Origin: a virus
DNA length: 42,076 bases
Virus record (IMG/VR): IMGVR_UViG_3300042090_000976
Coordinates: 1 to 42,076 of that record
Direction: 5' to 3' (one strand)
This document shows positions 4,616-24,392 of the stretch, in pieces (the first letter of the stretch is position 1; each line of letters starts with the position of its first letter). A program made the position numbers and the translations under genes. The notes under the pieces are model-generated. The model was not told where the DNA came from, searched no databases, and saw only the letters and a program-made list of their open reading frames with translations.

Positions 4616-4627
4616 CGAGGAAAATTT

Positions 4628-5830
4628 ATGCCAGCAAATACCACAATACAATTGAGAAACGGAACCGCCGCAGCTTGGAGCGCGGCTAATCCAGTATTAG
4701 CTCAAGGAGAAGTAGGTTGGGAATCTGATACCCTACATTATAAAGTGGGCAACGGAACCTCGACATGGTCTTCCTTATCTTATGGTGGATTAGTAGGTCC
4801 AGCAGCTACGAGCGTACTTGAATGTTTCGGAGATGGTTCAGACGGAAACGTGACTATCAGTTCCGGCACAACCACTCTTTCGCGCGACATGTTTTATAAC
4901 AACTTGACAATGAGTGGAACTGGAGTTTTAGTCACCAATGGTTGGCGAGTTTTCGTGGCAGGGATTTTAGATATCACTGCAGCGCAAGCAGGGGCTATTC
5001 AGTTCAATGGAAACAACGGAGGTTCATCAGCGACTACAGGAGCCGGAGCCGCTGGTGTGGTCCTTTCTACCAATACTGTAGGAGGCGGCGGAGTAGGGAT
5101 TGTGGGAAAAGCTGGAGCAGCTACTTCCCCGGCGGCTGGAGGTAGTAGTGCTGCTCAAACAGCTAATGGAAATTTGGCAGGTAGTGCCGGACAAGGTGGA
5201 ACTGGTTCTAGCGGAGCCGGTGCCGCGGGTGGAACTACGGGTGCGATTACGGCATCTCTCCCCATTCGACGATTTGAAACTGACTTGCTCTTGGGAATCA
5301 CTCAACTCTTAGGAGGTATCGGCGCACCTGGAGCCGGAGGAGCAAGTGGAAATGGAACCAATCTCGGAGGCGGCGGAGGCGGCGGCGGATCTGGTGCAGG
5401 GGTTTTAGCTCTTTATGCAAATACGATCAATCGAGGTGCCGGAACTCCCGCAAACTGCATTCAAGTAAATGGAGGCAATGGCGGAAACGGCGGATCTCCA
5501 ACAGTCGGAACAAACAATGGAGGCGGTGGGGGAGCCGGAGGAGCGGGCGGCGGATGGTTATTCCTCATGTACAACACCCTGACTGGGACTACAGCCACGA
5601 ATGCCTTACAAGCTAAAGGCGGTACCGGAGGCAACGGTGGAAATGGAACCGGGACTGGAACTGGCGGAACTGCAGGCAACGGCGGATACGGGGGTAGAAT
5701 TACTCTGCTTCAAGTGACCACATCAACTGGAAGTGAAAGTTTCGGAACTGCTGGATCGACAGGTTCGGGTCCTACTGGAGCAACCGGCGGAACTGGCGGA
5801 GCCGGAAATAACGTGCAAGTGAGTCTGTAA
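4628..5830 (+). CDS. Glycine-rich adhesin with Mtd-like N-terminus (copy 1)
   Basis: A 400-residue protein in three parts. Residues 5-55 (IQLRNGTAAAWSAANPVLAQ, GEVGWESDT, KVGNGTSTWSSL) match the N-terminal domain seen in major tropism determinant-type fibres. Residues 65-130 (FGDGSDGNVTISSG, LSRDMFYNNLT, LDITAAQAGAI) form a beta segment. Residues 130-395 are dominated by GGxG and polyglycine runs interrupted by hydrophobic strands, as expected for a polyglycine-II sandwich used by adhesins for receptor contact. The gene starts 12 bases after the tail fibre stop with a GAGGAAAA ribosome binding site. It is probably a receptor-binding tip. Its neighbour is a paralogue. Confidence 0.85.
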   Translation: MPANTTIQLRNGTAAAWSAANPVLAQGEVGWESDTLHYKVGNGTSTWSSLSYGGLVGPAATSVLECFGDGSDGNVTISSGTTTLSRDMFYNNLTMSGTGVLVTNGWRVFVAGILDITAAQAGAIQFNGNNGGSSATTGAGAAGVVLSTNTVGGGGVGIVGKAGAATSPAAGGSSAAQTANGNLAGSAGQGGTGSSGAGAAGGTTGAITASLPIRRFETDLLLGITQLLGGIGAPGAGGASGNGTNLGGGGGGGGSGAGVLALYANTINRGAGTPANCIQVNGGNGGNGGSPTVGTNNGGGGGAGGAGGGWLFLMYNTLTGTTATNALQAKGGTGGNGGNGTGTGTGGTAGNGGYGGRITLLQVTTSTGSESFGTAGSTGSGPTGATGGTGGAGNNVQVSL

Positions 5831-5833
5831 TTT

Positions 5834-7072
5834 ATGGCAATGCATATCGAACTCAGAAATGGAACTGCTGCAACTTGGACTTCTGTGAATCCAATTCTAT
5901 CCGCTGACGAAATAGGGATAGAAAGTGATACCGGACGTTTTAAGGTTGGTGATGGCACTTCTACTTGGACATTGCTTGCATATAGCGATATCCAAGGCGC
6001 AACTCAAACTTTGACTTACAAAAGTTTTGGGGATGGATCGGACGGTAACGTCACGATTAGTTCTGGTACTACTTCACTCTCACGAGATATGTTTTACAAT
6101 AACTTGACTCTCAATGGAACTGGAGTCATTTCCACAAATGGTTATAAAATTTTCGTTAAAAATATTCTTGATATCACCGCGGCTCAAGCCGGAGCAATTC
6201 AATGGAATGGGTTATCTGGAGGAAATGCTTCCGGAGCAACAGCCGGAAGTCAAGCAGCGGCTCAATCGGGAGGTTCTCTAGGAGCCATAGTGCAAGGAGC
6301 CGTCGGGGTTACAGCGACTACCGCGGCTGGAGCAAATGGAACTTCTGCAGCAAATATTGTCGGAACTAATGGCGGAATAGGCGGAACTGGCGGCAACGGA
6401 GGAACGGGAACCGATGGTACAGGAGGTTCCGGCGGCGGAGGAAGATCCCCAGGTACTAATAATCCAATAAGTCGATTTGAAACAACTTTTCTTTATGGCA
6501 TCGCTTTGATGACGGGAGGACCAGGGGGGTCTGCCGGAGGAGCCGGATCGGGAGATGGAACTAACACGGGAGGCGGTTCGGGTGCAGGAGGAAATGGCGG
6601 AGGAATCGTAGCCATTTTTGCAAATGTCATAGTGAAAAGTTCTTCGACTCCAGCCGGAGTTATACAAGCCAATGGCGGTAACGGTGGAAATGGCGGAAAT
6701 TCATCTGCAGGCGTAACAGGAGGCGGTGCGGGCGGTGGAGGAGGAGCCGGAGGTTGGGTCTACTTGACTTACAATTCAGTTTTTGGACCGACAATATCTG
6801 GACTCATCCAAGCCAATGGTGGAAATGGCGGGAACGGAGGTTCCGGATTCGGCACTGGTGCCACTGGGGGAGCCGGAGGAGACGCAGGAACTGGAGGAAG
6901 AATCAATATATTTAATGTTCCGTTGACTACTTCTAAAAATTTAGAAGGTGGAGTCAATAGTGTAGTTCTAAGTCCAGAATTGCTTGGAACCGTTCCAGTA
7001 ATTAATCAAGGAAGTGTACAATTACCAGGAGGAAACGGAGGGTTTAATGGAAAACTCAACGCTTCTCTTTAA
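5834..7072 (+). CDS. Glycine-rich adhesin with Mtd-like N-terminus (copy 2)
   Basis: A 412-residue paralogue of the gene just upstream. The N-terminal 120 residues follow the same order and many identical stretches (IELRNGTAATW, ESDTGRFKVGDGTSTW, FGDGSDGNVTISSGTT, LSRDMFYNNLT, LDITAAQAGAIQ). The glycine-rich body (residues 125-375) has different spacing and different non-glycine residues. A tandem duplication followed by divergence of the receptor-facing half explains this. Only three bases separate it from the upstream stop, and no strong ribosome binding site is visible, so it may depend on coupling. It probably provides an alternative receptor specificity. Confidence 0.85.
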   Translation: MAMHIELRNGTAATWTSVNPILSADEIGIESDTGRFKVGDGTSTWTLLAYSDIQGATQTLTYKSFGDGSDGNVTISSGTTSLSRDMFYNNLTLNGTGVISTNGYKIFVKNILDITAAQAGAIQWNGLSGGNASGATAGSQAAAQSGGSLGAIVQGAVGVTATTAAGANGTSAANIVGTNGGIGGTGGNGGTGTDGTGGSGGGGRSPGTNNPISRFETTFLYGIALMTGGPGGSAGGAGSGDGTNTGGGSGAGGNGGGIVAIFANVIVKSSSTPAGVIQANGGNGGNGGNSSAGVTGGGAGGGGGAGGWVYLTYNSVFGPTISGLIQANGGNGGNGGSGFGTGATGGAGGDAGTGGRINIFNVPLTTSKNLEGGVNSVVLSPELLGTVPVINQGSVQLPGGNGGFNGKLNASL

Positions 7073-7081
7073 GGAGTAGTT

Positions 7082-7285
7082 ATGAATCTTACAGTAACTT
7101 GTCAAACATGTGGAAAAATCCTTTCGGTCGTGCAGAAAGATCAGATTTCGCAAGATGATATTACGTCTTACGAGCAGAATTCTTTCTGCAATACTGTACA
7201 AGGAACCGGTACAGATGATGATGGAAATCCCATCACGATCTATGATGGTCAAACAAATATTCAAGCGACAATGACGGTAGATTAA
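7082..7285 (+). CDS. Small protein with N-terminal CxxC
   Basis: A 67-residue acidic protein. Residues 7-10 are CQTC (T-C-Q-T-C-G-K), and one more Cys lies at about residue 36, so a stable zinc site is not assured. The ribosome binding site AAGGAG is well placed. It sits between adhesin genes and a small structural-type gene, all same-strand and nearly contiguous. I recognise no family. A fibre-assembly or structural role is only implied by position. Confidence 0.6.
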   Translation: MNLTVTCQTCGKILSVVQKDQISQDDITSYEQNSFCNTVQGTGTDDDGNPITIYDGQTNIQATMTVD

Positions 7286-7286
7286 A

Positions 7287-7637
7287 ATGGCATTAAATCC
7301 AGACGGGTCTCCGACCTACTTTCCATTATCAGGTCCCGTAGGACAGGCAACTTTCAATAAGTGCCTTTCAATAGTTCAACAAGCCCAAGCTACTTGGACT
7401 GCATTAGTAGGTGAATTTGCCGCCGAAAATTTAGCTATGGGAATCACAAGTGAGCAAGCTGCTCTGATCGGTAATGCTCTAAATCAAGTTATGACTTACG
7501 GTGCAGAAGGATCTCTTTGGCTTGCTTTCAACGCTTTAAGTCAAGTACAAGTGACTCCCGAAATGGACCCATTCTTGACTGCGGATCGAATTCAGTGGAT
7601 GAAAAATAAATTAATTGGCGTAATTAGTCAACTTTAA
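7287..7637 (+). CDS. Small alpha-helical protein, unknown function
   Basis: A 116-residue mostly helical protein. A short extended N-terminus (MALNPDGSPTYFPLSGP) is followed by three or four amphipathic helices rich in Ala, Gln and Leu (residues 18-110). There is no signal sequence, membrane helix or catalytic motif. The start is one base after the preceding stop codon, consistent with coupling. It lies just before the permuted NlpC/P60-like gene. Function is unknown. Confidence 0.65.
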   Translation: MALNPDGSPTYFPLSGPVGQATFNKCLSIVQQAQATWTALVGEFAAENLAMGITSEQAALIGNALNQVMTYGAEGSLWLAFNALSQVQVTPEMDPFLTADRIQWMKNKLIGVISQL

Positions 7638-9509: not shown

Positions 9510-10562
9510 ATGGCATTTACGATAAATTTTGTAGTCGCCCCGGCGAATGCCACAGTAGGGGCAATCTACACCAACAATTTTCAGACTTTTACCGTGCTTA
9601 CCACGGTTGCTGATAGCGTCGTTCTCTCTTGTATCGCGACCGGGATTCCTTCAGAAGCTGGAACTTTGACTCTTTCATCCGGCACGGGCGATGCCGAAAT
9701 TACCTTCTCCAGCTATACGGCTCAAACCAGTAATGTGTTGGGTTCTAAAGAAGGCATAATTCTCAACAACAAACAGAAGCGCAATGTCGGTCCACTCATA
9801 AATGTTGAGACCTTGAAGCGTGATTATCTTTTCGGAATCGATCTGACCGACGAAGAAGGCAATCCTATGAGTGACGAGACTTACCAACTCGCTCTCGATA
9901 ATGCCACTTCTTGGTTAGAGCACAAACTCGATATACACGTTCTGCCATACTTGGTGACGGAAGACAAAGATTATCGTCTGAATGATTACGCAGACTGGGG
10001 CTACATGTATCTAAATGAGTACCCCGTCATGCAATTCATTCAAATGGAGATGGTTTACTTTCGCGACATTAACGGCATTCCGGAGACTATTCAGATTATT
10101 CCAAATAACTGGATTCGATTACAGAACCACGATGGAATCGTGCGCTTGATTCCGAATGCAAGATTTCCAGCCACTTTGCAAGTCGATCAATCCGGCAACT
10201 TTTTTCCGGAAGTTCTCAGGTCAAATCTCGTACCTCATTTGTGGAGACTCACATATCTAGCGGGCTTCGACGACGGCGCAATTCCAATGATTATAAATCA
10301 AGCCATTGGGCTCTTAGCCGCCATTCAACTGATGGGAGTTGATGGAGTTTCCGTTTATGGTCCTGGCATCGCTTCTACCTCCATTTCATTGGATAGTTTG
10401 AGTGAAAACATTTCCACTACTAACAACTCAGAGAGTTCTGCATACAGTGCCGTGATTGCCGAATATCGTAAACTGCTCTTTGGCGTAGAGAAAGACGACA
10501 GAACAGGACTCATCACTATCCTTGAAACTTATTACAAAGGTCAAGGAGTGGGCGTCATCTAA
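9510..10562 (+). CDS. Connector-type virion protein with added N-terminal beta module
   Basis: A 350-residue protein of two parts. Residues 5-72 are a beta module (NFVVAPANATVGAIYTNNF...GTGDAEITFSSYT) that recurs in the tail protein at 38451. Residues 90-350 (ETLKRDYLFGIDL, DETYQLALDNATSWLEHKLDI, YPVMQFIQMEMVY, LWRLTYLAGFDDG) have the helical start and mixed body I associate with head-tail connector or neck proteins of large myophages. The helical DNATSWLEHKL segment is like gp6-type connectors. The stop overlaps the next ATG (TAATG). The assignment to the neck is inferred. Confidence 0.7.
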   Translation: MAFTINFVVAPANATVGAIYTNNFQTFTVLTTVADSVVLSCIATGIPSEAGTLTLSSGTGDAEITFSSYTAQTSNVLGSKEGIILNNKQKRNVGPLINVETLKRDYLFGIDLTDEEGNPMSDETYQLALDNATSWLEHKLDIHVLPYLVTEDKDYRLNDYADWGYMYLNEYPVMQFIQMEMVYFRDINGIPETIQIIPNNWIRLQNHDGIVRLIPNARFPATLQVDQSGNFFPEVLRSNLVPHLWRLTYLAGFDDGAIPMIINQAIGLLAAIQLMGVDGVSVYGPGIASTSISLDSLSENISTTNNSESSAYSAVIAEYRKLLFGVEKDDRTGLITILETYYKGQGVGVI

Positions 10563-13321
10563 TGAATAAATTCATCGAAACAGCAGAAAGTTTATTTAAA
10601 GCTGGAGACGGCGAAGGCTCAAAAGGCGGGCATGTTATTGGTCACACCAAATCAGGCAAGCCTATCTATGCAAGTTCTAGTCATCCCGAGCACGCAAAAT
10701 TTAGCCCCCAAGAACACACCGAAGCGATGAATCATCATTACGAGATTTGGTCCAAGACTCAAGCCAAGATTGGAAAGATCAAAGAAAAAAGACCAAATTG
10801 GAATCCTCCAAAAGAGATTACTAGCTTTCTCCAGCATCATCATACGCAGATGCAAATGCATCAAAACCGCGCAAGTCGCGGAATGGCGCGTCAAGCGGCT
10901 CCTAAAAACTTCGGAGTCCAGCACGGTACTGCCCCGGCGAAACATCCCTACCATACGCCTCAGAATATCCACAAGGGGTTGAACGATATTGAAGTTCCAT
11001 TCTTAGCGGCGGTCGTAGTCATCAGTCCTGACAAGAAGAAAGTTCTTCTCGGTAAGAGAAGCAAAGATGAAGAATGGGAATCTCCCGCCGGTCACGCGGA
11101 CATCGGAGAGCATCCCGAAGATGTGGTAATCCGAGAATGTTTCGAAGAGTTCAGTGTTCCTTTACGTATTGATCAACTAGAGCAACTACCTATGATGTAC
11201 AAGAAGGATATGACTCCGATACATTGCTACATGGCTATAACTGAACCAGATCAAATCAAAAATGTAAGTTGCGAAGATGATCCTTCAGAAGAGCATACAA
11301 AGTGGAAGTGGTTCGCCTTAGACGAGAAATTGCCAGAACCCATGGAAGATAATCGTTTCAATACTATTATCCATGCCAAGATGAAACTTGCAGGGATTAT
11401 AGTTAAATCTTACATGCAATTAGATGATACTGAAGGTATGTCTCAGATGCACACCACTGAGTTTGCCACGGAGCGCGAACACGATCGCGCTCAACAGGAT
11501 TTCATCGAATCCAAAATGCGCGATTACAAACCAGGAGATGCTCCAGTTGTAATGGGCATTGGAGATGTTACGAATCTGCATCTAGTGAAGATAGACGATG
11601 GTCTTTATTCTGGCTTCGTCAAAAAGGTCGACTCAGACGGTCTCGAAGAAACCGTTGCGAACATTGATAAAATGACGATTCCCTCTATGGTTCAGTTCTT
11701 GCGCGCGAAGCAATTGCTGTGGCCAGTAACTGAAACTCCCGTAGATCATGAAAAACAATTGAAAATCATTTTAGATGTATTGTCGAGCAAGCAGACTGGT
11801 CCAGTGACTATGAAATATGTCAGCATGGATGGAGACAATATCGGTAATCGAGTTGCCCAAGCTGAAGCTGAGAACGATGAACAGCGACTCATGGAAATGA
11901 GCCACAAGATCGAAGCCGGACAATCTGTGTTCCGTACTTGGATCCAAACTGTGGGCGGTGCCGTGATTGAGAGTGGCGGGGATGAGGGCGTAGCCAAAGT
12001 TCCCGAAGCTGCTCTCGATAAAGTCGAAGCGTTTCGAAACCAATATATGTCCGTTTCTGGCGCAACCGTAACAGTTGGGATTGGAAGTACCATATCCGAA
12101 TGCACCCGCGCGCGAGAACTTGGCAAACTTAAAGGTAAGAACCGCGTCGAATTCTTCACTGCCGAATCGGATGCTCAACTCAAAGACATGTTAAAACCAG
12201 TCAATGAGGCTCAAAAAATCATAGAATCTGGAGTTTTGAAACTTTTAAAGGCTTTGGAACATTTCGAAAAAGCCATGGATCTTGAGAAATACGTCGAAGA
12301 TGCAGACCAAGAAGTGGCAAAAAAGACAGAAAAAGAGATCGAACTCGATACCGCCAAAAAATGGGCGGCTCGCGCCATAGCGGCTATAAAATTGGGTAAT
12401 AAGGCGAAAGCCATGCACTATGCGGACGAAGCCTTAGAACATGCTTCTATGGTCAAGGATATGGGCAAAACCGTCGGCGCGATACAGCAAATCCTCTTGG
12501 ACCGAGGCGTTCCCTTCGATGATGATGTGGAAAAGTCTCTGATCCGGATTTTAAGATCAAATGATGAATTTCAGAAGGGTCAAACTCAACCCATTGGTAC
12601 AGTCCGAGTTTGGGCAGATCAGCACTTCCGTAAAGAAGCCTCGGGTCATTGGATGCCCATAGCTGGCGCAAATGGTGCCACAGGTCCAGCAGAAGCTGCG
12701 GGCGGTCCCGGCGGGGCGGCTCCGGACGCGACTGCCGCTCCTTCGAAGGCTCCTAATATCGAAGATGAGCCCAAACCCACTAAAGAAGTAAAGCCCGAAG
12801 CCAAGCATTTAAAGCACCTCTTACCGAAAGAGGGCATGGGCGGGCATGTCACCGCACACTCCCGCGATCTGAAAAACGCTTTAGATCGAGGTCCTTTCTC
12901 CTTGATTTCCAGCGGGCGTAACCACAAAAATGCTGATGACCGAGGGATGACAGATGAACAAGTTTCTCACCGATCTAAAAAATTGGAACAAGATCTTAAA
13001 GATTCAGGGCATAAGTATATGAAAGTTAAAGGAAAGTACAATGGCGGAAGTCATGATTCTTTCCTGACTTTCCACGCGAAGCCCGAACATATGGATGAGT
13101 TGGCGAAAAAGTATAACCAAGAAAGCGTCATCCACAGTGAAGATGGCAAACATCGCCAGCATTTTGTGAACGGCGACAAAGCCGGGAAACATTACAAAGG
13201 TGAAGGACATGTAATGGTTCCGGACGCCGAAGATAACTTCACCGAGGCTAATACTTCGGATGGTAAGAAAATGAAGTTCACCTTGGGCATGGATCAGGGA
13301 AAACTTCACGAAAAAGCATGA
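10562..13321 (+). CDS. Nudix / GGDEF-mCpol-like palm / DUF3293-like fusion protein
   Basis: A 919-residue multidomain protein. Residues 22-36 are the cassette GGHVIGHTKSGKPIY, shared with the next gene, in a His-rich region. Residues 145-285 are a Nudix hydrolase: the box at 177-199 keeps G-x5-E-x7-R-E-x-x-E-E, with Ser replacing the final Gly. Residues 416-535 look like a nucleotide-cyclase palm of the GGDEF/mCpol group: MDGDN at 422-426, SGGDEG at 471-476, VTVGIGST, and LGKLKGKNRVEFF. Both acidic metal sites are present. Residues 550-660 are helical. Residues 677-700 (IGTVRVWADQHFRK, SGHWMPI) form a small module common in phage proteins, and 775-890 resemble DUF3293. It may be an injected or packaged enzyme. 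Activity is inferred. Confidence 0.78.
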   Translation: MNKFIETAESLFKAGDGEGSKGGHVIGHTKSGKPIYASSSHPEHAKFSPQEHTEAMNHHYEIWSKTQAKIGKIKEKRPNWNPPKEITSFLQHHHTQMQMHQNRASRGMARQAAPKNFGVQHGTAPAKHPYHTPQNIHKGLNDIEVPFLAAVVVISPDKKKVLLGKRSKDEEWESPAGHADIGEHPEDVVIRECFEEFSVPLRIDQLEQLPMMYKKDMTPIHCYMAITEPDQIKNVSCEDDPSEEHTKWKWFALDEKLPEPMEDNRFNTIIHAKMKLAGIIVKSYMQLDDTEGMSQMHTTEFATEREHDRAQQDFIESKMRDYKPGDAPVVMGIGDVTNLHLVKIDDGLYSGFVKKVDSDGLEETVANIDKMTIPSMVQFLRAKQLLWPVTETPVDHEKQLKIILDVLSSKQTGPVTMKYVSMDGDNIGNRVAQAEAENDEQRLMEMSHKIEAGQSVFRTWIQTVGGAVIESGGDEGVAKVPEAALDKVEAFRNQYMSVSGATVTVGIGSTISECTRARELGKLKGKNRVEFFTAESDAQLKDMLKPVNEAQKIIESGVLKLLKALEHFEKAMDLEKYVEDADQEVAKKTEKEIELDTAKKWAARAIAAIKLGNKAKAMHYADEALEHASMVKDMGKTVGAIQQILLDRGVPFDDDVEKSLIRILRSNDEFQKGQTQPIGTVRVWADQHFRKEASGHWMPIAGANGATGPAEAAGGPGGAAPDATAAPSKAPNIEDEPKPTKEVKPEAKHLKHLLPKEGMGGHVTAHSRDLKNALDRGPFSLISSGRNHKNADDRGMTDEQVSHRSKKLEQDLKDSGHKYMKVKGKYNGGSHDSFLTFHAKPEHMDELAKKYNQESVIHSEDGKHRQHFVNGDKAGKHYKGEGHVMVPDAEDNFTEANTSDGKKMKFTLGMDQGKLHEKA

Positions 13322-13369: not shown

Positions 13370-15466
13370 ATGGCAGACCAAGCAAAAGATTCTAAAGAAA
13401 TCGACAAAGAAATCGGGCAGATAGCTGAGAAGATGGCAAAATCGGTTGTCGATGGAAAACAGGCTCTTTTTGACACTATCATCAATCTTGGACCGGAAGG
13501 TCTCAAGAAAACCTTGCCCACGCTTTCTCCCGCGCAGCAAGAAATTGTGAAATCTGCAATCGCCGAAATGAGCAAAGCTACACACCTTCCTGAAGTCACA
13601 CAAGATGCCGGTGTTCTCACTCCCGAGAAAACTCAGACCAAACATGCCAAAATGAAAGCCGAATCTCAAACTGGTTCTGACAATCAGGATGAGAAGTTGA
13701 TGCAAGACAAAAACAAAGACATCAAACATCAAGGCGGTCCAAGCGATAAACCCGAAGGCTGGGAAGGTCAAGTCATTAAGGCTAAAGAACCCCCGCACAA
13801 AGGTCCTCACGGCGGAGTCATCATTGGTCACACCAAAGACGGCAAACCGATCTATGAACATGCTGGTGCTGAAGAGCACAAAGATTTTACTCCGGGACAA
13901 CATCAAGACGCTTCAGATGCTCACGTTCGCATTTCAGATAAACACTGGGAAGCCAAGCAAAATAGCCCTTATGCATCGGTTGCAGGTTTGCAATCTATGG
14001 GCGGCGACAAGAAGAAATTCGACGAAGCCAAAACTCAACACGCAAAAGACTCGGGCGAACATGAACTTCATCGCGAATCCGCAGCTTTTCACCGCAGAAT
14101 GGCGGACCATAAAGCTGGTATCAAAATCGGCGACATGACTCCGGACGACCACAAAGCACAAGCTGACCGTCACCTAGACCGCGTCAATAAACTCACCGAA
14201 ATGCGTAAATGTGGTTATATGGCGAAAGATATGGGACAAGGCGGCGCAGGCGGCATTGGACTAGCTTGTTCGATGGACAAGTCGCTGGATATCGCTGAAG
14301 ACATTTTGAAGTCTCTTTTTTGCAGTCCCATCAAGATGTATGCTTCGGATAAAGATGTTCCTGAAATGACCAAACAGCAATGTTTGAATGACATCGAGTG
14401 GAAACTCCGCCAAATCAAAGATATGAAAGATATGGCTTGGATGATCCAGGATGAAGTCCCAGAAGCCAAAGAAATGATGGAGAAGAAATTCTCTAAATTG
14501 AAGTCCGAAATTAAAGAACTTTGCGAAAAACATAGTCACTTGAAAAAAGCCTATGAAAATTCGCAGATGATCGCGTCTGAAACTCCCAAATCTGATCTTC
14601 AGAAAAAACAAGGTGTTCCCGAGGGCGTAGATCCCGAGAAGTGGGAACGTGGCGTTAGAGAAGTAAAGGAACAAGGTCATAGTAAGACCTCTGCTATCAA
14701 AATCATTAATTCGACCATCAAAAAAGGTGAAAATATGGAACAGAAGCCCGAAATGACCGAAGAACAAAAACTCGAAAAGAAAAAAATGAAAAAGGCGAAA
14801 AAGATTGCCAAATCGATCCAAAAGATCGTAAAATTGGCTAAAGCCTTAGGTCTTTCGAAGGATGACGTTAAAAAAGCCATCGAAGCTGCCAATGGCGACC
14901 TCAAAGTAGTGAAGAGCGAAATGAAAGATAAAGTCAAAGGCAAGATCAATAAAGAAGAAAATCAGGTTGAGATTAAAACTCAAGATGAGGCGGCTGTCAC
15001 TGCCCCAAAGCCTGATCAATCAAAGGGCGCGCTAGAAGTGAAGCCCGATGAGACCGCCGATGAGGCACTCAAGCAACTTCCCAAGGTTGCAAAATCAATC
15101 AACTGGCAGATGAAGAGTTCAATCGCTGCTGGTTCTTTGGGACGTAACACCCACTGGGATGTAGACGGTTATATCGAGAAATCTGAACAAGAAAAGCAAG
15201 AGATCATCAAAAAAGGCGGCTACTTCGGTGAGAAAGAAGTTGAAGCCCTCAAAAAATCTGAGACTGCTAAAGCCGACCTAAATGATCTCATCGAAAAAGG
15301 CATGGATTACAGCAAAGAAGAGATTGCTCGTATCGAAGGCGTTCGGGACCACAAACCTGATGCTGGTGCCCTCAAAAAATCAAATTATGACGTTGAAATC
15401 GCTCGTTCTATGGGCATGACTCAAGAACAATACGAAGAGATCTTCGGCAAAAACGGCGAAGAATAA
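13370..15466 (+). CDS. Long Lys/Glu-rich protein, possible scaffold or internal head protein
   Basis: A 698-residue highly charged protein with low hydrophobic content. Residues 148-162 (GGVIIGHTKDGKPIY) match the cassette in the upstream fusion protein, followed by the same His-spaced tract (EEHKDF, HQDASDAH). Residues 300-400 and 480-560 are helical, including a Lys-only run (KKKMKKAKKIAKSIQKIVK). Residues about 418-455 (GVPEGVDPEKWERGV, VKEQGHSKTSAIKI) resemble a helical module seen in phage capsid-associated proteins. Residues 620-695 contain repeated KKSETAK, IEKGMDYSKEE, MTQEQYEEIFG helices. No enzyme domain is recognised. Composition and place suggest scaffolding, internal or capsid-associated protein. 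Confidence 0.65.
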   Translation: MADQAKDSKEIDKEIGQIAEKMAKSVVDGKQALFDTIINLGPEGLKKTLPTLSPAQQEIVKSAIAEMSKATHLPEVTQDAGVLTPEKTQTKHAKMKAESQTGSDNQDEKLMQDKNKDIKHQGGPSDKPEGWEGQVIKAKEPPHKGPHGGVIIGHTKDGKPIYEHAGAEEHKDFTPGQHQDASDAHVRISDKHWEAKQNSPYASVAGLQSMGGDKKKFDEAKTQHAKDSGEHELHRESAAFHRRMADHKAGIKIGDMTPDDHKAQADRHLDRVNKLTEMRKCGYMAKDMGQGGAGGIGLACSMDKSLDIAEDILKSLFCSPIKMYASDKDVPEMTKQQCLNDIEWKLRQIKDMKDMAWMIQDEVPEAKEMMEKKFSKLKSEIKELCEKHSHLKKAYENSQMIASETPKSDLQKKQGVPEGVDPEKWERGVREVKEQGHSKTSAIKIINSTIKKGENMEQKPEMTEEQKLEKKKMKKAKKIAKSIQKIVKLAKALGLSKDDVKKAIEAANGDLKVVKSEMKDKVKGKINKEENQVEIKTQDEAAVTAPKPDQSKGALEVKPDETADEALKQLPKVAKSINWQMKSSIAAGSLGRNTHWDVDGYIEKSEQEKQEIIKKGGYFGEKEVEALKKSETAKADLNDLIEKGMDYSKEEIARIEGVRDHKPDAGALKKSNYDVEIARSMGMTQEQYEEIFGKNGEE

Positions 15467-15476
15467 GGATGGCTGA

Positions 15477-16310
15477 ATGGCTGACGAACCCAAGCGGAAG
15501 CCAAGGCCACAGGGCTGGAATCTAACTCCTCCCGTAAGAATACCGGGAAAAAAGGGCTCCAACCGAGTCGACCTTACTCCCGAAAAATTCAGAGAATTGA
15601 TAAATACCAAGGGGACCCGAGTTCGGGTCTTCCGGACTACTTTTTGTCCAAACGTCAAATCGATTGACGGCGCGGAACATAACATCGACTGCGATATGTG
15701 CAATGGGTCGGGCTGGCTCGACGTTCGCCCGATCGAGACTATGGCTTATATCCAAACCCAGAGTTTCGAGAAGATGATCTTTTCCGAAGGTATGTTCGAC
15801 GGCAATTCTGTGGCGGCTACTTTCAATTTTGGTGTGGAACTTCAATATTTCACCTTAGTTGAACTCCTGGACTTTCCCGAGATTTTTTATCAGCGCGTGA
15901 AGCGTCAAAATGGGAACCTCGACGTCTTGAAATATAAAGCCTTGCGGATCAACATTTTGATCGACCAGCACGGTAAAGAGTATTTTGCGGACGCAGATTT
16001 CACCTTAGATCCCAATGGGTCTATCAAATGGAATTCGAATCGAGGTCCTGGCGTAGGCGTTATTTATACGGTCCATTACCAAGCTGCCATGCAATTCCGA
16101 GCGGTGCGCGCTATGCACGTGAATCGATTTACCCAGATCTTTAAACCGGAGAACGGTGGAACGATCGAGCACATTAAATTACCAGAACAGTGGCTTTTGA
16201 TGAAAGAATTCTTAATCAAACGTCGCGATCGGGATGGTAACGAAATCCTGCCAAATCTGATTGCTCCTGGCACTGAGTCGGACGAGCCTCAAGATCCATA
16301 CCAAACTTAA
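15477..16310 (+). CDS. Virion protein with CxxC zinc-like motif, neck region
   Basis: A 277-residue protein. After a basic Pro-rich tail (residues 1-30), residues 50-80 hold TTFCPNV and CDMCNGSGW, giving three cysteines around a CxxCxGxG element that could bind zinc. The remaining 190 residues are mixed alpha/beta (TMAYIQTQSFEKMIFSEGMFDG, FTLVELLDFPEIF, VGVIYTVHYQAAMQFRAVRAMH). I have seen this layout in hypothetical virion genes next to tail-completion genes of large myophages. It follows the Lys-rich gene by ten bases. Its stop is shared in a TTAA overlap with the convergent operon. The neck or tail-completion assignment is an inference. Confidence 0.7.
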   Translation: MADEPKRKPRPQGWNLTPPVRIPGKKGSNRVDLTPEKFRELINTKGTRVRVFRTTFCPNVKSIDGAEHNIDCDMCNGSGWLDVRPIETMAYIQTQSFEKMIFSEGMFDGNSVAATFNFGVELQYFTLVELLDFPEIFYQRVKRQNGNLDVLKYKALRINILIDQHGKEYFADADFTLDPNGSIKWNSNRGPGVGVIYTVHYQAAMQFRAVRAMHVNRFTQIFKPENGGTIEHIKLPEQWLLMKEFLIKRRDRDGNEILPNLIAPGTESDEPQDPYQT

Positions 16311-16552
16311 CGTCCGCGCGCTCTCTTTCTCAGATCGAGCATCACGGCTTCAGCTATGGGTTTTTCGAAAGCCCTATCGATACGATCATCCAATTGATGG
16401 AATGCATGGTAGGGTGAATCTTCGGTGTATTTATCATTCGGAGGATCTTTTATAATTTTCTTTCTATCCGCTTCCATGATGCTGTCAAAAACTTGTTCCA
16501 TGTGACGTCGTATTTTAAAATAGGCTTCTTCAGTCTGCTTTCGGGTTGCCAT
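16307..16552 (-). CDS. Small charged helical protein, unknown function
   Basis: An 81-residue protein, last gene of the reverse-strand operon. It is helical and strongly charged (KQTEEAYFKIRRHMEQVFDSIMEADRKK, LDDRIDRAFEKPIAEAVM), with no membrane segment. AGAGGT lies before the ATG at 16552. Its first 23 bases overlap the end of the CYTH gene, so the two are translationally coupled. It ends tail-to-tail with the neck-type gene. I recognise no family. Operon context links it to the ligase/CYTH set. Confidence 0.65.
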   Translation of the reverse strand: MATRKQTEEAYFKIRRHMEQVFDSIMEADRKKIIKDPPNDKYTEDSPYHAFHQLDDRIDRAFEKPIAEAVMLDLRKRARGR

Positions 16553-17210
16553 TTTTTACCTCTTTGCGATACATTTGGAACAAACTTTTCTTTAATCTTT
16601 TTTGAGCACTAATTCCAATCGGGGCAAGAACCTTTTCATACTTCTCTATCACAGCCCATGCCTGATCTTCCGACATGCTGCCGATTAGAGATTCGTCGAC
16701 TTCGATTTCCACGAAATAATCCGCTTCCTCTGGCTTGCCGAAAGTGGTATCGTAGACGGTGTAAAATACGAGAGTTGCATCTGGGAAATTATAGATATGA
16801 CAATTTTTTACGATCGAACAATTGAAGATCGCGCCCGAATCCTTAATCTGCTCAAGAATAACTTTTTCAGGAGTTCCGCCAATATCCCAATTGTGCTCTT
16901 TGCGCTGAATGTTATTCTTGGAATTCGCCGGTTTATATTTCCAAGTGACCTGGCGGCGTCCTTTGTCGAGCCCAAATGAAGGCTTTCTATAGCGAATGAA
17001 TGTGCCTTCTGGGTCCCACTGCGGCATCGAATTGAACCAAGAATCAGGGTAAGTGAAAAATTGGTCCGGTCCCTCGACGTACACGAATCCCTTGAGTTCG
17101 GTATGAGCCTCTAAAATCTGCTTGAACTCGATGAGCAAGTGATCCGCGACCCGGTATTTGGTCTCAAATTCTACGTGCTCGAGATTGTCGGGGATTTCAT
17201 CTTCAGCCAT
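16530..17210 (-). CDS. CYTH-like triphosphate tunnel metalloenzyme
   Basis: A 226-residue protein with the CYTH signature ExExK at residues 14-18 (VEFETKYRV). Later strands carry charged alternating residues typical of the tunnel: FIRYRK, VTWKYKPA, and YFVEIEVDE. Family members bind a triphosphate and two divalent metals, and include thiamine triphosphatase, inorganic triphosphatase, class IV adenylate cyclase and RNA 5'-triphosphatases. The substrate cannot be told from this sequence. In an operon with a nucleic-acid ligase, an RNA-end or nucleotide triphosphatase role is attractive. GAGGAAA precedes the start, and the gene overlaps both neighbours by several bases. Confidence 0.78.
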   Translation of the reverse strand: MAEDEIPDNLEHVEFETKYRVADHLLIEFKQILEAHTELKGFVYVEGPDQFFTYPDSWFNSMPQWDPEGTFIRYRKPSFGLDKGRRQVTWKYKPANSKNNIQRKEHNWDIGGTPEKVILEQIKDSGAIFNCSIVKNCHIYNFPDATLVFYTVYDTTFGKPEEADYFVEIEVDESLIGSMSEDQAWAVIEKYEKVLAPIGISAQKRLKKSLFQMYRKEVKNGNPKAD

Positions 17211-17493
17211 TTTCCTCGTCTTCTACCACTTTTAAGTGGCATTTTGCCATCCGCGCCTTCACATTCTCTGGGTCAAAATCGATCGAACCTATGCTCTTTT
17301 TGAGTTCCGCGATCAATTGTAAAATGTCCGAATCAGTCAACTTCAGTTTCAAGTAATCTCGAGCCATCATATCTTTGTGGGTCGTGAAGTTCTCCCCAGG
17401 CTCTTTGTTCACCACAATGAATTGGAATCGACGACCATGTTTGTGGTCCCAGATGGGCTCTACCCGAATCTTATCGTTGATATTTACACTCAT
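17203..17493 (-). CDS. Small protein between ligase and CYTH genes
   Basis: A 96-residue protein. I start it at the ATG whose first base is 17493, because GAGGA lies upstream and the ATG overlaps the ligase stop (TAATG); a longer frame would run deep into the ligase gene. The N-terminal half is beta-like (INDKIRVEPIWDHKHGRRFQFIVVN), and the C-terminal half helical (TDSDILQLIAELKKSIGS). One Cys lies near the end (AKCHLKV). No family is recognised. The eight-base overlap with the CYTH gene indicates co-expression. Confidence 0.65.
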   Translation of the reverse strand: MSVNINDKIRVEPIWDHKHGRRFQFIVVNKEPGENFTTHKDMMARDYLKLKLTDSDILQLIAELKKSIGSIDFDPENVKARMAKCHLKVVEDEENG

Positions 17494-18617
17494 TAAATGT
17501 CCTCGCGGATTCGTACTCCGACTGGATGCATGGGGACCGCATACTTGGTCCACCGCTTGAAGCGAACCGTCATGGATTTGCCCTTCCAGATCGATTCATT
17601 GTTAAACGCCTCTTTTAAGAATTCAGTTTTGCCTTCCATTTTTACATCGAACTCGACGCCATCGCAGGTCTTGCATTTGAATGCCCCTACGCATCCTTGG
17701 AGTTTGCCCCGACCTTCTTGAATACCTACGATCTCAAATTCTTGTTCGTAAAACTCTTTCAGTTTCTGTAAATTGTAAGAGCGTTTACCTTCGTAAAAAG
17801 AATCGAGGTTTCGGATAATCGCACCTTCGTAACCCAGTCTGATAAACTCCCGAAAGGCTTCGAGCACTTCTTCGTGATTGTTCACGATCTTAGTTGGAAC
17901 GACTTTGATGAATTTAGCCGACTTTAAAGCCTCGGCTAAAAATCCACTTCGTTGTCCGAATTTGAAACCGTCCTCTTCAACGTCATAAACGTGATACTGA
18001 ACCAGTTCGTGTTCGGGATCGACCTTTTTGGATTGACGCACAATACTTGAAATCTTCTCAAAATCCTCTTTCAATTCGTGATTGTACAATTCACCGTCAA
18101 GTCTAGGAACTTGTTCGGGGAAAATACTCTTAAGTTCAGCCACTATATGTGGAACTGAATTTATGGGTTTATGACCACGGCTCCAAAGAGTCCAGTCTGT
18201 TTTGGTCCGACAGCGATGTCCGTCAAGTTTAGGCTGTACGGCAGCGGGAAATTTGATCTTATGATTACTTTCTGCAGTGAAAACCCCGTTCAAGAGAGTG
18301 CCGTATTCATGGGCAAGCATACACTCTTCGCCCTGGAGGTCATTCTCTTCAGAAGCGGCACGAGTCTTATCTTCGACATATCCCTTTTTGGTTTTCTGTT
18401 TTTCCCACTTGGATTGGGCTTCCGCTTCAGCCTGTTGTTCTGGAGTTGTAGCATTTGCCTTACCTACATTCTTGCCCGCTTTAACAGTATCTTCGGTTCG
18501 TTGAATTTTACCGCCGTCTTGTCCGTGTTCGACAATGATTTTATTGCCTTCTGTTTTGATGAGCCACTGGCGAATTGAACCAGAACTGTCAGCTTTGTAA
18601 AGCATAGGTAATTGCAT
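17493..18617 (-). CDS. ATP-dependent DNA ligase with WGR-like N-terminus
   Basis: A 374-residue nucleotidyltransferase. I chose the ATG at 18615-18617, five bases after AGGAGGC; the frame extends upstream to 18827, but that would cross the divergent promoters. Residues 5-75 (LYKADSSGSIRQWLIKTEGNK...) resemble the WGR-like domain fused to some phage ligases. Residues 128-290 carry the ligase motifs: I QPKLDG (Lys130), III RLDGEL (172-177), IIIa YHVYDV, IV YEGAIIRN (263-270), V LQKLKEF. Residues 290-374 form the OB-fold, with a CKTC pair at 315-318. It would seal nicks in phage DNA during replication or repair. It leads the reverse operon from a sigma-70-type promoter. Confidence 0.88.
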   Translation of the reverse strand: MQLPMLYKADSSGSIRQWLIKTEGNKIIVEHGQDGGKIQRTEDTVKAGKNVGKANATTPEQQAEAEAQSKWEKQKTKKGYVEDKTRAASEENDLQGEECMLAHEYGTLLNGVFTAESNHKIKFPAAVQPKLDGHRCRTKTDWTLWSRGHKPINSVPHIVAELKSIFPEQVPRLDGELYNHELKEDFEKISSIVRQSKKVDPEHELVQYHVYDVEEDGFKFGQRSGFLAEALKSAKFIKVVPTKIVNNHEEVLEAFREFIRLGYEGAIIRNLDSFYEGKRSYNLQKLKEFYEQEFEIVGIQEGRGKLQGCVGAFKCKTCDGVEFDVKMEGKTEFLKEAFNNESIWKGKSMTVRFKRWTKYAVPMHPVGVRIREDI

Positions 18618-18638
18618 GGAGCCTCCTAGATTTGTATC

Positions 18639-18667
18639 AGGATAACTCGTTCGAAAAATAAAGTCAA
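18639..18667 (-). promoter_or_regulatory. Sigma-70-type promoter for the ligase/CYTH operon
   Basis: On the reverse strand TTGACT (18662-18667) and TATCCT (18639-18644) are separated by exactly 17 bp. They match the consensus in five of six and four of six positions. The ligase start lies about 20 bases beyond the -10. The promoter is back to back with the forward promoter at 18675, with only 7 bp between the two -35 boxes. Confidence 0.6.
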
Positions 18668-18674
18668 ATTTTGA

Positions 18675-18703
18675 TTGACAAGCAGAATCAAACGTCCTAA
18701 TCT
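18675..18703 (+). promoter_or_regulatory. Sigma-70-type promoter for the sigma-factor operon
   Basis: TTGACA (18675-18680) is a perfect -35. It is followed after 17 bp by TAATCT (18698-18703), a weak -10 with three of six matches. The GTG start at 18721 follows about 17 bases later. A consensus -35 fits recognition by the host's main sigma factor before phage sigma is made. Confidence 0.55.
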
Positions 18704-18720
18704 GGCTCAAAGGGGGCTCA

Positions 18721-20473: not shown

Positions 20474-21253
20474 ATGTCTGAAATCAACATCAAACTCAAA
20501 GCGCAGGCTTTAGGCAAAGCCCTAGAGGATCTCTCCTACGAGATCACGGACACCTTGAATGAGGCTATCCACGACGCGGTCCAGGCGGGTTACGCGAGCA
20601 TTATAGGCAGTGCCAACCTGGGGCTGAGTTCGACTCGTAAAGACTATCTCAGTGGTCTCAAACTCCACGAATTGGGCGAAAATGAGTACCTCATCATGCT
20701 CGATGGCAAATTCGCAAACTCCCTAGAGAGCGGTTTTACAGGCTTTGATGTTAAGTCTGGGATGCTAAAATCGAAGAAAGTTGTGAACGTCGGCGTGCGC
20801 GCGGGTCAGCCATGGGTTCAACAATCGAAAGCCGATGGGCATAAATTTGCTCACGTCCCTTTTCAACATCGCCCTTTTTCTCGAGAATCGCAGTCGGCGG
20901 ACCTCGGCGCGGCAATCCGCAAACTCAAAGCCGTAAATAAACAGGGCGTGGAACAAAAATTCACCAAATTGTTTACAGATGAGAATGGCAAGGCTCTCGA
21001 GGGCAAAGTCGCCGTAGTTAAAAAAGTCAAAGGATTTCCACAACTTGATCGCATTACCAAATTTCAAAAGACCTACAAAAACGAGAAGACCGGCAAGGAA
21101 ACTGTCCAATCTCTTTACATGACTTTTCGCACGGTATCCGAGCAAGGTTCTGAATGGCAACATCCCGGATTCAAAGGACTCAAGGCATTCGATGACGCGG
21201 AGCAAATGATAGACTCTCAAATAGACGAAATCTTGAACAGGCTGTTACGATAA
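20474..21253 (+). CDS. Tail-completion-type protein (HK97 gp10-like)
   Basis: A 259-residue protein. The N-terminal helix (QALGKALEDLSYEITDTLNEAIHDAVQAGYASI) and the C-terminal SEQGSEWQHPGFKGLKAFDDAEQMIDSQIDEIL, with its W-x-HPG-F, fit the HK97 gp10/tail-completion group. That group forms rings joining head and tail. The middle (residues 90-200) is basic and beta-rich. It lies between the sigma-factor gene and the tail genes, and its stop overlaps the next ATG (TAATG). The start is separated by only one base from GAGG, so ribosome binding from a longer transcript would be poor. Confidence 0.72.
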   Translation: MSEINIKLKAQALGKALEDLSYEITDTLNEAIHDAVQAGYASIIGSANLGLSSTRKDYLSGLKLHELGENEYLIMLDGKFANSLESGFTGFDVKSGMLKSKKVVNVGVRAGQPWVQQSKADGHKFAHVPFQHRPFSRESQSADLGAAIRKLKAVNKQGVEQKFTKLFTDENGKALEGKVAVVKKVKGFPQLDRITKFQKTYKNEKTGKETVQSLYMTFRTVSEQGSEWQHPGFKGLKAFDDAEQMIDSQIDEILNRLLR

Positions 21254-22236
21254 TGGACAAAAATATAGGCGAAGTTTCTTACTATCTACCTGATCTTATT
21301 GTGGAATCTGTTCTACGGGAAGCCTATGGCGTCCTGAAAAGAAATCCGCAATTGATCGACCACATTTTTAGAAGTTTGACCAAGTCCAAAATCATCCGTG
21401 AAAAATACGGTCAAAAAGAATTGGAGCGGATCAAGAAGAACATCGAGAAATACGACTGGTCGTTCGTCCATAGCTTCAATGAAGTTGAAGGCAAAGTCCC
21501 CTGCATCTCCATTCAATTGATGACCGAAGTAGAAGCGAAAGAAACTCACGTCGAAGATCACGATATCGAAGCGCGAATTCCGCTCAGTAGAGAGGAGCAA
21601 GCCTCTTTGATCGTGATTCAAGGCTTCACTCCGACTTCTTACGTAGCCCAATCTGGGGCGATTTTGGTCGCCGACAACGTCGATTTGACCAACGTTCATA
21701 CGAATCTGCTCTTCGTTGACGCCTCGGGAATCATTTTTCCGATTCTTGGGGGCATAGACGAGACGCCTGGTCAACAGCAATTTATGATCGCGGCGAACGC
21801 TACCCCGAATATTTCCGGACCCTGCTTAATCAAATCTGCCATAGATTTCAAGCAAATACAAATCAAAAGTACCATGACAGACGTGAATCTACTCCTGGGG
21901 GTCCACACGAAGGAGCCGCTTTTGACTAAGTATTTCTACATCATTTTGAAATATTTTCTCATGGCTCGAAAGCATGTCTTGATCGAAGAGGGCTTCCTTT
22001 GCTCTAAGTTCCAAGGATCTGAATTCACTAGAAATCTCGAGATTGAGGGTGATGCAGTATTCAATCGATTTTTGACTCTCTCGGGTAAGGTCGAGGACAG
22101 TCTGCGATCTGATGAAACTCAGGTCTTCGATGCGATCGATGTCATTCTTCAAGTGCCCAAGGATGTGGCTACGACCGAAGATTTGAACCTCCAAAATAGC
22201 AGCATCCAAGTCGGTCCAACTTCTCAGGACGAATAA
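21253..22236 (+). CDS. Virion protein, probably neck or tail terminator
   Basis: A 327-residue protein. Residues 1-75 are helical with charged ends. Residues 85-190 are beta-rich (GKVPCISIQLMTEVEAKET, SLIVIQGFTPTSYVAQSGAILV, LLFVDASGIIFPIL), and residues 200-300 mixed. Residues 125-145 look like a turn-rich loop. It has no catalytic motif. Direct coupling to the gp10-like gene upstream and the sheath genes downstream suggests a neck, tail-terminator or sheath-terminator component. I recognise the layout from large-myophage structural regions but cannot name a family. Confidence 0.65.
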   Translation: MDKNIGEVSYYLPDLIVESVLREAYGVLKRNPQLIDHIFRSLTKSKIIREKYGQKELERIKKNIEKYDWSFVHSFNEVEGKVPCISIQLMTEVEAKETHVEDHDIEARIPLSREEQASLIVIQGFTPTSYVAQSGAILVADNVDLTNVHTNLLFVDASGIIFPILGGIDETPGQQQFMIAANATPNISGPCLIKSAIDFKQIQIKSTMTDVNLLLGVHTKEPLLTKYFYIILKYFLMARKHVLIEEGFLCSKFQGSEFTRNLEIEGDAVFNRFLTLSGKVEDSLRSDETQVFDAIDVILQVPKDVATTEDLNLQNSSIQVGPTSQDE

Positions 22237-22508: not shown

Positions 22509-24392
22509 ATGGGCGGCATTTACGAACAGTTTGCAGGTCAGTCAATCGGTAAGCCTGGTGCTTATTCGGTTTCACAAGTAAGCAACTCGAACGGCTCACA
22601 ACTCAACTCAGATGACACTTTGTTTCTGATCGGTGAATCAACCATCGGTGCTCCCGGCTCGGTGAATGGCATTCAGCAATTTGCCGCTGAAGATCTCAGT
22701 TCTCTTATCGCAACTTACGGATCAGGTCCTCTGGTTGATGCGGCTGTCGCAGCTATCCGAGTTTCGAAAGATCCGACCGTCGGCGGCGCAGGTCAAATTC
22801 AGATCTACAAAACCAACGCTTCTCTGCAAGCTACTGCTGTGGTAAATGAAGCCACAAATACGAATCCTCTTTTGAACCTTTCTGACCCGGCTTGGGGCGC
22901 ACCCGGTAACAACATCTCGATCACTATCGCTGCTGCTGCCGCTCATCAAGTCAATGTGACTATCAACATTTTGGGTCAAGCTGCAAAAGTGCTTGGCACG
23001 AATCCTGCCACTGCGGTTTTGTCGATCACATATACCGGTAACGGTACAGCGGCGACTGCTACTATCAGCGGCTCGACGATGGCGAACAAAACGCTCACCA
23101 CTGCATTGACTGGTCAATCTGACAGTTCTGTGAACTTGACAATTCCTCTCGTGAATTACACGATGAGCCAACTTGTCACTTACATCAATATGCAAGCTGG
23201 CTACACTGCGACTTTGCTCGACCCCACTAAAGCTGCAGTTCAAGCCAATGTTTTGGACCCGATCGCAGCTTCTAGCATTAAGACTTCACCTCTTAGCTTG
23301 TACCGCGTTCAGGGCGAAGTTGTTGATTTGATCAACGGCTCAAACGTTCTTTCTGCAGCTTTGGCGACAGTGCCGGTTGTAGGTCTTCCGTACACGGTCA
23401 CGAACTTGTTCTTGACAGGCGGCGCGCAAGGCGGTTCCACAAATACGAATTTCTCGACTGGTCTAGCAGCTTCTTTAGCTCAAACGTACAATGATGTTGT
23501 ACCTTGCATCTCTCAAGATGCCACGGCTGACATTGCGCTTTTGGCGACTGATCCCTCTTCGACTTACACGATCGCGTCAGTTCAAGCGGCTCTTACGGCT
23601 CACCTGGCTCTGCGCGGTTCGATTAAAAATCGCAAAGAGGCTCAAGCATTCACCGGTTTCCGAAGCAATACCCAAGCCGCTGCTTACGCTGCCGCTGGAG
23701 CAATCGGAAGTCAATATGTGCAAATGGTTATGCAAGACGTTCTCATTTCTGATGTGAACGGCAATTTGACCTGGAAGCAACCGCACGTTCTTGCCGCAAT
23801 GTGCGCAGGCTATCGCTTGGGTACACCGGTTGGTACGCCCTTGACGCACAAATATCTCAATGTGAATGGTTTCGGTCAATACGTGAATGCGACTACTGGC
23901 ATCGCGGGCGGCGACTTTAACCCCGATCTCAACTACGACGCTGCCATCATGGCAGGCGTCACATTCCTCGAAACTGCTTCGGGCGGAAGCCGAATCGTTG
24001 TGGATAATACCACTTACGGTATAGACGCTAGTTTCGTATTCAACCGTGGTTCTGTAATGGCAGCTTCAATCTACGCTGCTCAGAACGTTCGGGACGTAGC
24101 AGAAACGTACTTCGTCGGTAATATCTTGCCGAACGGTAAAGTTTCTGGTGGAAAGATTTCTGGAGGCGGCGCATCTTCTTTGAAGAATGTCATCACTCAA
24201 GAACTCGTCGCTCTTTGGAATGCTCAAGTTTTGGCTACTTCGATCGACGCTCCCCAAGGTTTCAACCCGAGCACTTTCGTTGTAACTGTAACTGGGAACA
24301 CCGCGTTGGTTTATGTTGAAATCAAACCGATCCAAGGTTTGGACTTCATCTTCATCACGTTCACCCTCGGTCAAACGACTACAACGGCGTAA
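22509..24392 (+). CDS. Tail sheath protein
   Basis: A 627-residue contractile tail sheath protein. The N-terminus (KPGAYSVSQVSNSNG, DTLFLIGESTIGAPGS), the middle repeated beta region (residues 100-300), and a long C-terminal domain with TGFRSNTQAAAYAAAGAIGSQYV, FNRGSVMAASIYAAQNVRDVAETYFVGN and LVYVEIKPIQGLDFIFITF match the conserved order of phage sheath families. An extra insert rich in Thr/Ala/Val (residues 120-230) is probably a surface domain. A strong AAGGAG ribosome binding site is present. The tail tube follows two genes later, which confirms the assignment. Confidence 0.9.
   Translation: MGGIYEQFAGQSIGKPGAYSVSQVSNSNGSQLNSDDTLFLIGESTIGAPGSVNGIQQFAAEDLSSLIATYGSGPLVDAAVAAIRVSKDPTVGGAGQIQIYKTNASLQATAVVNEATNTNPLLNLSDPAWGAPGNNISITIAAAAAHQVNVTINILGQAAKVLGTNPATAVLSITYTGNGTAATATISGSTMANKTLTTALTGQSDSSVNLTIPLVNYTMSQLVTYINMQAGYTATLLDPTKAAVQANVLDPIAASSIKTSPLSLYRVQGEVVDLINGSNVLSAALATVPVVGLPYTVTNLFLTGGAQGGSTNTNFSTGLAASLAQTYNDVVPCISQDATADIALLATDPSSTYTIASVQAALTAHLALRGSIKNRKEAQAFTGFRSNTQAAAYAAAGAIGSQYVQMVMQDVLISDVNGNLTWKQPHVLAAMCAGYRLGTPVGTPLTHKYLNVNGFGQYVNATTGIAGGDFNPDLNYDAAIMAGVTFLETASGGSRIVVDNTTYGIDASFVFNRGSVMAASIYAAQNVRDVAETYFVGNILPNGKVSGGKISGGGASSLKNVITQELVALWNAQVLATSIDAPQGFNPSTFVVTVTGNTALVYVEIKPIQGLDFIFITFTLGQTTTTA

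Follow-up and report, generated by a model that had tools for sequence, protein, structure and literature searches.

Known nucleotide cyclases of the minimal CRISPR polymerase (mCpol) type have been described as bacterial immune enzymes that guard against phage counter-defences. The mCpols of the Panoptes system are constitutive and make cyclic dinucleotides (PMC12657230, PMC12657218); in the enzyme KpOptS the catalytic residues are Asp6 and Asp57 (PMC12657218), and the pair S30/N34 gives adenine selectivity (PMC12657230). A separate literature concerns polyvalent proteins of phages and conjugative elements, which bring several unrelated enzymes against the host, RelA and GGDEF domains among them; for the GGDEF domains, interference with nucleotide signalling of the host has been suggested (PMC5512222). 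Here we describe a phage protein that belongs to both subjects. It is encoded in IMG/VR virus record IMGVR_UViG_3300042090_000976, whose full 42,076 nucleotides we call the window, and its 919 amino acids (aa) join a Nudix domain, an mCpol domain, and a domain with the fold of an S-adenosylmethionine (SAM) lyase. About half of our confidence lies with the reading that this protein is a nucleotide cyclase, encoded in a virion-gene block and probably carried into the host, that supplies or mimics cyclic-nucleotide signals and disarms nucleotide-based immunity.

The central palm domain is an intact-looking mCpol. Residues 419 to 531 matched the Pfam mCpol profile (PF18182) with 49 bits against a cut-off of 26.4 (E = 9.4e-13), and an AlphaFold2 model of residues 415 to 543, built from a 51-sequence alignment of the window and fetched loci, reached a predicted local distance difference test score (pLDDT) of 97.6. 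Foldseek placed the OptS structures 9mnr, 9pd0, and 9nwn on top, followed by GGDEF domains and then Cas10, with Panoptes OptS 9mnr as the best match (E = 5e-9, TM-scores 0.82/0.88, root mean square deviation 1.6 A). Panoptes OptS also ranked first when PDB sequences were searched with the palm. The original prediction, made from the letters alone, had described the palm as being of GGDEF and mCpol type. The second half of that description holds and the first does not, because the best solved relatives by both sequence and structure are OptS proteins; a GGDEF identity was rejected, with no match to PF00990 in the window at E 0.01. Cas10 of type III CRISPR and GGDEF diguanylate cyclases share with the window protein a palm fold, a two-acid active site, and a GG[DE] loop, but their sequence and fold matches were weaker than those of OptS, and the other Cas10 domains and the CRISPR context are absent.

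At the level of single residues, the motifs named in the original prediction are all in place: MDGDN, within MDGDNIG (422 to 428), SGGDEG (471 to 476), VTVGIGST (503 to 510), and LGKLKGKNRVEFF (520 to 532). Its expectation that structure prediction would yield a palm fold was borne out by the model, and both metal-binding acid sites are indeed kept, D423 and D474 being the counterparts of KpOptS Asp6 and Asp57 with a spacing of 51 in both proteins. S447 likewise corresponds to S30. Besides this fold, DGD motif, Asp pair, and Ser, which the window protein has in common with Panoptes OptS (PF18182; 9mnr, 9nwn), there are differences: the window domain belongs to a viral clade, reads GGDE where bacterial relatives have [AG]ADG, and lies within a 919-aa fusion in a phage neck module with no 2TM-beta effector as neighbour.

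Single- and two-sequence searches of IMG/VR and GTDB returned at most one relative. The family was opened by a DNA pattern encoding DGD[DN]xG, 43 residues, and [GA][GA]D, a pattern that selects for the active site, which returned 26 viral stretches, of which the profile confirmed 16 as true mCpols, and one further mCpol on a contig of a Planctomycetaceae metagenome-assembled genome; each of these 17 records had exactly one PF18182 match above cut-off. The viral proteins are long (228 to 841 aa) compared to the bacterial Panoptes-type matches to the same pattern (123 to 161 aa). A maximum-likelihood tree of 63 domains, the bacterial set of which comprised the 16 Panoptes-type sequences returned by the pattern, with the root and other bacterial branches outside its scope, separated viral from bacterial mCpols at 100/100 and grouped the window domain with those of loci L153, L156, and L157 at 100/97. 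Judged by this tree, the viral mCpols form a clade of their own, distinct from the sampled bacterial Panoptes-type mCpols. By structure, the BFVD library yielded a single clear match, to an uncharacterised protein from an uncultured Caudovirales phage, and the sole match in 50,697 isolate phage records was Myxococcus phage Mx1.

Because the DNA pattern selects for the active site, we sampled the lineage a second time through the tail sheath, keeping the best 80 of 308 sheath relatives, a procedure with no such selection. Among the 38 loci of Mx1-like myoviruses with a complete neck interval, taken from the adaptor gene to the gp10-like and 36563 genes, an mCpol gene was present in 36 (35 distinct proteins), directly upstream of the gp10-like gene in 28 and one gene away in 6. 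mCpol is a near-universal neck gene beside the tail genes in a large group of uncultured phages, and the location among virion genes that had been pointed out for the window protein is a conserved property of the whole lineage, not an accident of this genome. Across the 37 distinct mCpol domains of the survey, the second catalytic Asp (D474) was found in 36/36, the second Asp of DGD (D425) in 34/34, Ser or Thr at the position of S447 in 34/34, and K526 in 37/37. Where it could be estimated, the ratio of nonsynonymous to synonymous substitution (dN/dS) of the domain was about 0.04 to 0.26 and mostly below that of the rest of the gene, a rough figure given that dS was often near saturation. Together these comparisons indicate that the mCpol domain is under strong purifying selection.

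The canonical gene of this lineage consists of the mCpol, an acidic linker, and a conserved C-terminal helical segment. This segment persists where the mCpol is degenerate (Mx1 and the second copy of L163) or replaced (L197 and L198, the two exceptions, in which a gene with a Cys-rich N terminus takes the mCpol place), which suggests that the canonical protein is an enzymatic head on what may be a structural or targeting anchor. In L197 (5975-7297) and L198 (5944-7377) the canonical neck gene has a module of repeated CxxC motifs in place of the mCpol. The degenerate mCpol of L163 (15272-16525, minus strand) lies at the canonical site, and not far from it the same phage encodes a fusion of an intact mCpol with a DUF3293-like domain.

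Such an arrangement could also mean that the structural role came first, with the mCpol an exapted nucleotide-binding fold that aids neck or head-tail joining and catalysis secondary or absent. The fixed site that mCpol has next to the adaptor and gp10-like genes, seen in 36 of 38 modules, would fit this explanation, as would the degenerate copies at the canonical site in Mx1 and L163 and a helical segment that outlasts the enzyme in the same gene. We nevertheless consider it unlikely, as the catalytic Asp, GGDE loop, Ser, and Lys are conserved almost completely, the Cys-rich module of L197 and L198 implies that mCpol is unneeded for assembly there, and mCpols free of the helical segment occur in accessory genes, even beside baseplate genes (L165/L166).

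Free mCpols of this kind, without the helical segment, are those of the window, L153, L156, L157, L158, L163, and the near-identical pair L165/L166. In 6 of these 8 (5 of 7 plus the window), a SAM-lyase-like (DUF3293-like) domain is fused to the mCpol or encoded within two genes of it, compared to 0 of 45 anchored mCpol genes (Fisher p = 8e-6 with the window left out and kinship uncorrected). Nudix domains recur in the same places: L156 encodes a DUF3293-like domain, a Nudix domain at the end of a 1585-aa protein, and an mCpol in consecutive genes, a Nudix gene adjoins the DUF3293-mCpol fusion of L163, and L158 has Nudix, DUF3293-like, and GNAT-mCpol in one gene series. In the window the whole set is united in one protein. 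That mCpol, SAM-lyase-like, and Nudix domains repeatedly occur as neighbours or fusion partners is evidence for a shared pathway.

The original prediction, of one packaged protein that may make and break nucleotide signals against host defence, is partly supported, with its domains, mCpol identity, acid sites, palm fold, and gene position borne out. The preferred reading builds on the observed domains, folds, active-site residues, gene order, clade, selection, and recurrent linkage, from which product, packaging, delivery, and target are inferred. If this reading is correct, the viral mCpol would be catalytically competent, dimerise, and cyclise two nucleoside triphosphates to a cyclic dinucleotide with no activator required, ATP being the likelier substrate because Ser447 matches KpOptS Ser30. 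The protein would enter the host with the particle, either as a part of it or as cargo; such packaging and delivery are probable because the gene belongs to the late virion-gene block and because in the wider lineage the domain is joined to the helical segment of a neck protein. Inside the host, the cyclic dinucleotide could occupy or mis-set sensors, for example by keeping Panoptes-type effectors off or through competition with signals of type III CRISPR or of the cyclic oligonucleotide-based antiphage signaling system (CBASS). For the Nudix domain, the expected reaction would be hydrolysis of a related nucleotide. SAM or a SAM adduct may be the substrate of the SAM-lyase-fold domain, which is probably active in relatives and is altered here. 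More tentatively, we propose for this uncultured myovirus lineage that a core neck gene could encode a virion-borne mCpol through which cyclic nucleotides would be made in the host from the onset of infection, turning an immune-signal synthase on nucleotide-based immunity, to which the window phage would add Nudix and SAM-lyase-fold domains in one protein.

Several observations weigh against the preferred reading. E451 stands in place of KpOptS N34, the second base-selectivity residue, and with the Ser kept and this second contact changed, the product may differ from that of KpOptS. The first catalytic Asp (D423) is retained in 26 of 34 survey domains and is N in the other 8, the canonical mCpol copy of L163 is without both catalytic acids, and both are also lost in Mx1, the one isolate in which the domain was found. 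Replacement of the domain in L197 and L198 shows that mCpol is dispensable in some lineages. The window protein is without the helical segment, and packaging by that route is not directly applicable to it. Finally, no defence target was identified, and in the SAM-lyase-fold domain the window copy reads SHDSF, with His, and Asp next to it, at the position of the catalytic Glu (Svi3-3 E69, T3 E68).

The same active-site conservation would be expected if the phage uses the domain for signalling other than counter-defence, such as host cyclic-dinucleotide physiology, lysis timing, or dormancy, with late synthesis and no packaging. GGDEF domains were found in 2 of the 20 records searched (Mx1 and G012), and the gene sits in a virion-gene block, with the presence of its product in virions putative. 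This explanation is improbable in our view, since free mCpols are linked to SAM-lyase-like, Nudix, and ART/GNAT polyvalent proteins, a pattern typical of counter-host proteins, and an effector or receptor was not found nearby. The GGDEF gene of Mx1 (L170:17173-17904; WNM70324.1) lies between the prohead protease and major capsid genes of a phage whose mCpol is degenerate, and the second GGDEF-domain gene of the lineage is at G012:83888-84271.

The C-terminal domain had been predicted to be DUF3293-like. The family likeness held up, and the SAM-lyase fold and the replaced catalytic Glu had gone unrecognised. On residues 795 to 881, Pfam scores fell just short for both DUF3293 (23.3 bits, cut-off 25) and S-AdoMet_lyase (PF23780; 23.2 bits, cut-off 28), a homologue in L003 passed the DUF3293 cut-off (26.4 bits), the DUF3293-like domain and T3 SAM lyase matched weakly when their sequence profiles were compared, and PDB sequences searched with the domain profile gave nothing. 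With sequence scores under cut-offs, the relation was settled by the fold: the model of residues 768 to 917 (pLDDT 90.3) had T3 SAM lyase 8bb1 as its only Foldseek match below 1e-3, and chain 8bb1_E gave a Z of 13.0, with the next unrelated chain at 7.0. In T3 gp0.3 (8bb1, 7ock), E68 is essential (PMC7877911). In a weak sequence alignment it corresponds to the Glu of a "PE" motif retained in most lineage members, and the conserved Gln is kept in the window as well (YNQES). In lineage relatives the domain may be an active lyase of SAM or SAM-AMP, whereas in the window copy, which is part of a fusion, lyase activity may be lost or changed. In L003, two minus-strand genes adjoining the mCpol gene (4262-6973 and 7020-7547) encode, as judged by eye, a DUF3293-like protein with a HELSHAL zincin-like motif and a C39-like papain-fold peptidase.

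This domain raises the prospect of SAM-AMP type chemistry, in which a Cas10-like palm and a SAM-lyase-fold domain would make and break a SAM-nucleotide adduct, much like type III CRISPR with its SAM-AMP signal and SAM-AMP lyases. Such lyases are known from phages (PMC12255297), and the pairing with free mCpols and the match to the T3 fold given above are what it would lead one to expect. It is nonetheless very unlikely, as the mCpols tested to date produce cyclic dinucleotides (PMC12657230, PMC12657218), the closer fold is that of T3 SAM lyase and not of SAM-AMP lyase, and the window copy is without the catalytic Glu.

Least probable is superinfection exclusion or a phage-carried defence of the Panoptes kind, with the phage mCpol restraining an effector: OptS is the closest solved homologue, but genes with at least two transmembrane-like segments made up 0 of 266 neighbours of canonical copies, no multi-transmembrane gene was found close to the free copies examined, the Cap15/OptE receptor family was undetected in 18 records (control genomes gave no match either), the viral clade is separate from the sampled Panoptes mCpols, and the Panoptes two-gene operon with a 2TM-beta (Cap15-like) or 2TM-CARF/SAVED effector was not found at viral mCpols, the window neighbours being virion, ligase, and sigma genes.

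By its domain content the 919-aa protein is a phage polyvalent (multi-enzyme) protein. What is new is the setting and combination of known domains. In the accessible part of the polyvalent protein account (PMC5512222), we found no description of an mCpol in such a protein or of Nudix, mCpol, and SAM-lyase fold together. Within a search that most subscription literature lies outside, we likewise found no prior description of a viral mCpol and no paper joining mCpol with the virion; the two 2025 mCpol papers treat prokaryotes, and their text is without viral genomes, Caudoviricetes, or prophage. An intact version in a phage neck gene reverses the described relation between mCpol and phage. Phages may make immune signals and not only destroy them, and the lineage offers a test case for interference with CBASS, type III CRISPR, or Panoptes by way of synthesis, perhaps with delivery by the virion. 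The repeated link of mCpol to a SAM-lyase-like domain is also of interest in view of SAM-AMP signalling.

The neck module of Mx1 (OR576727) resembles that of the window in its gene order, in an mCpol-derived domain before the gp10-like gene, and in DUF3293-like and Nudix genes nearby; it differs in that the mCpol catalytic acids are lost and the three domains are in separate genes. Mx1, a cultured phage, also has a rich cluster of polyvalent genes (L004:405-6711), in which a HipA/PI3K-like kinase gene comes after that of a 1479-aa protein with GNAT, ART-PolyVal, and Nudix domains.

Table 1. Location of the 919-aa protein, its parts, and surrounding neck and tail genes in the window
Feature	Position	Strand	Remarks
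919-aa multidomain open reading frame	10562..13321	+	N-terminal motif, Nudix, mCpol, helical/TPR-like linker, SAM-lyase-fold (DUF3293-like) domain
Upstream connector-like virion gene	9510..10562	+	Homologue of Mx1 23551 gene; phrog_772 E 2e-37
N-terminal GGHxxGHTKSGKPIY...H motif, residues 17-66	10610..10759	+	Repeated in next gene at 13796-13945
Nudix domain, residues 148-265	11003..11356	+	PF00293 E 1.1e-14; Nudix box 177-199
mCpol domain, residues 415-543	11804..12190	+	Catalytic D423, D474; S447; E451
TPR-like helical repeat in linker, residues 599-627	12356..12442	+	Weak; TPR_2 E 0.012, under cut-off
SAM-lyase-fold (DUF3293-like) domain, residues 768-917	12863..13312	+	Glu position reads H/D (SHDSF); conserved Gln kept (YNQES)
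Adaptor/head-completion gene (phrog_1004)	15477..16310	+	In relatives, left border of conserved neck module
gp10-like neck gene	20474..21253	+	In relatives, normally after mCpol
Homologue of Mx1 36563 neck gene	21253..22236	+	
Tail sheath protein	22509..24392	+	Alignment with annotated Mx1 sheath and relatives

The three-domain fusion that had been read from the letters was confirmed by Pfam and fold searches. Its Nudix box, GHADIGEHPEDVVIRECFEEFSV, was found where predicted, in a domain that scored above the gathering cut-off of Pfam NUDIX (PF00293), and it keeps REcfEE (REuxEE) with the late G changed to S. The start codon of the gene overlaps the stop of the connector-like gene (TAATG), and the neck module continues with the adaptor and sheath genes on the other side. 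The N-terminal motif and its copy in the next gene are 44% identical over 50 aa. That next gene (13370-15466, plus strand) encodes a 698-aa protein that has the GGxxIGHTKxGKPIY motif in common with the N terminus of the 919-aa protein and is otherwise family-less. A role for the GHTKSGKPIY motif as a lineage-wide virion tag was ruled out, as only the two window proteins have it among the fetched loci. Further along, a 226-aa protein (16530-17210, minus strand) without a Pfam match carries EFETKYRV near its start, by eye an ExExK like that of CYTH triphosphate-tunnel enzymes. Genes for an ATP-dependent DNA ligase (17493-18827, minus strand) and a sigma-70 family factor (18951-20435, plus strand) lie inside the neck module.

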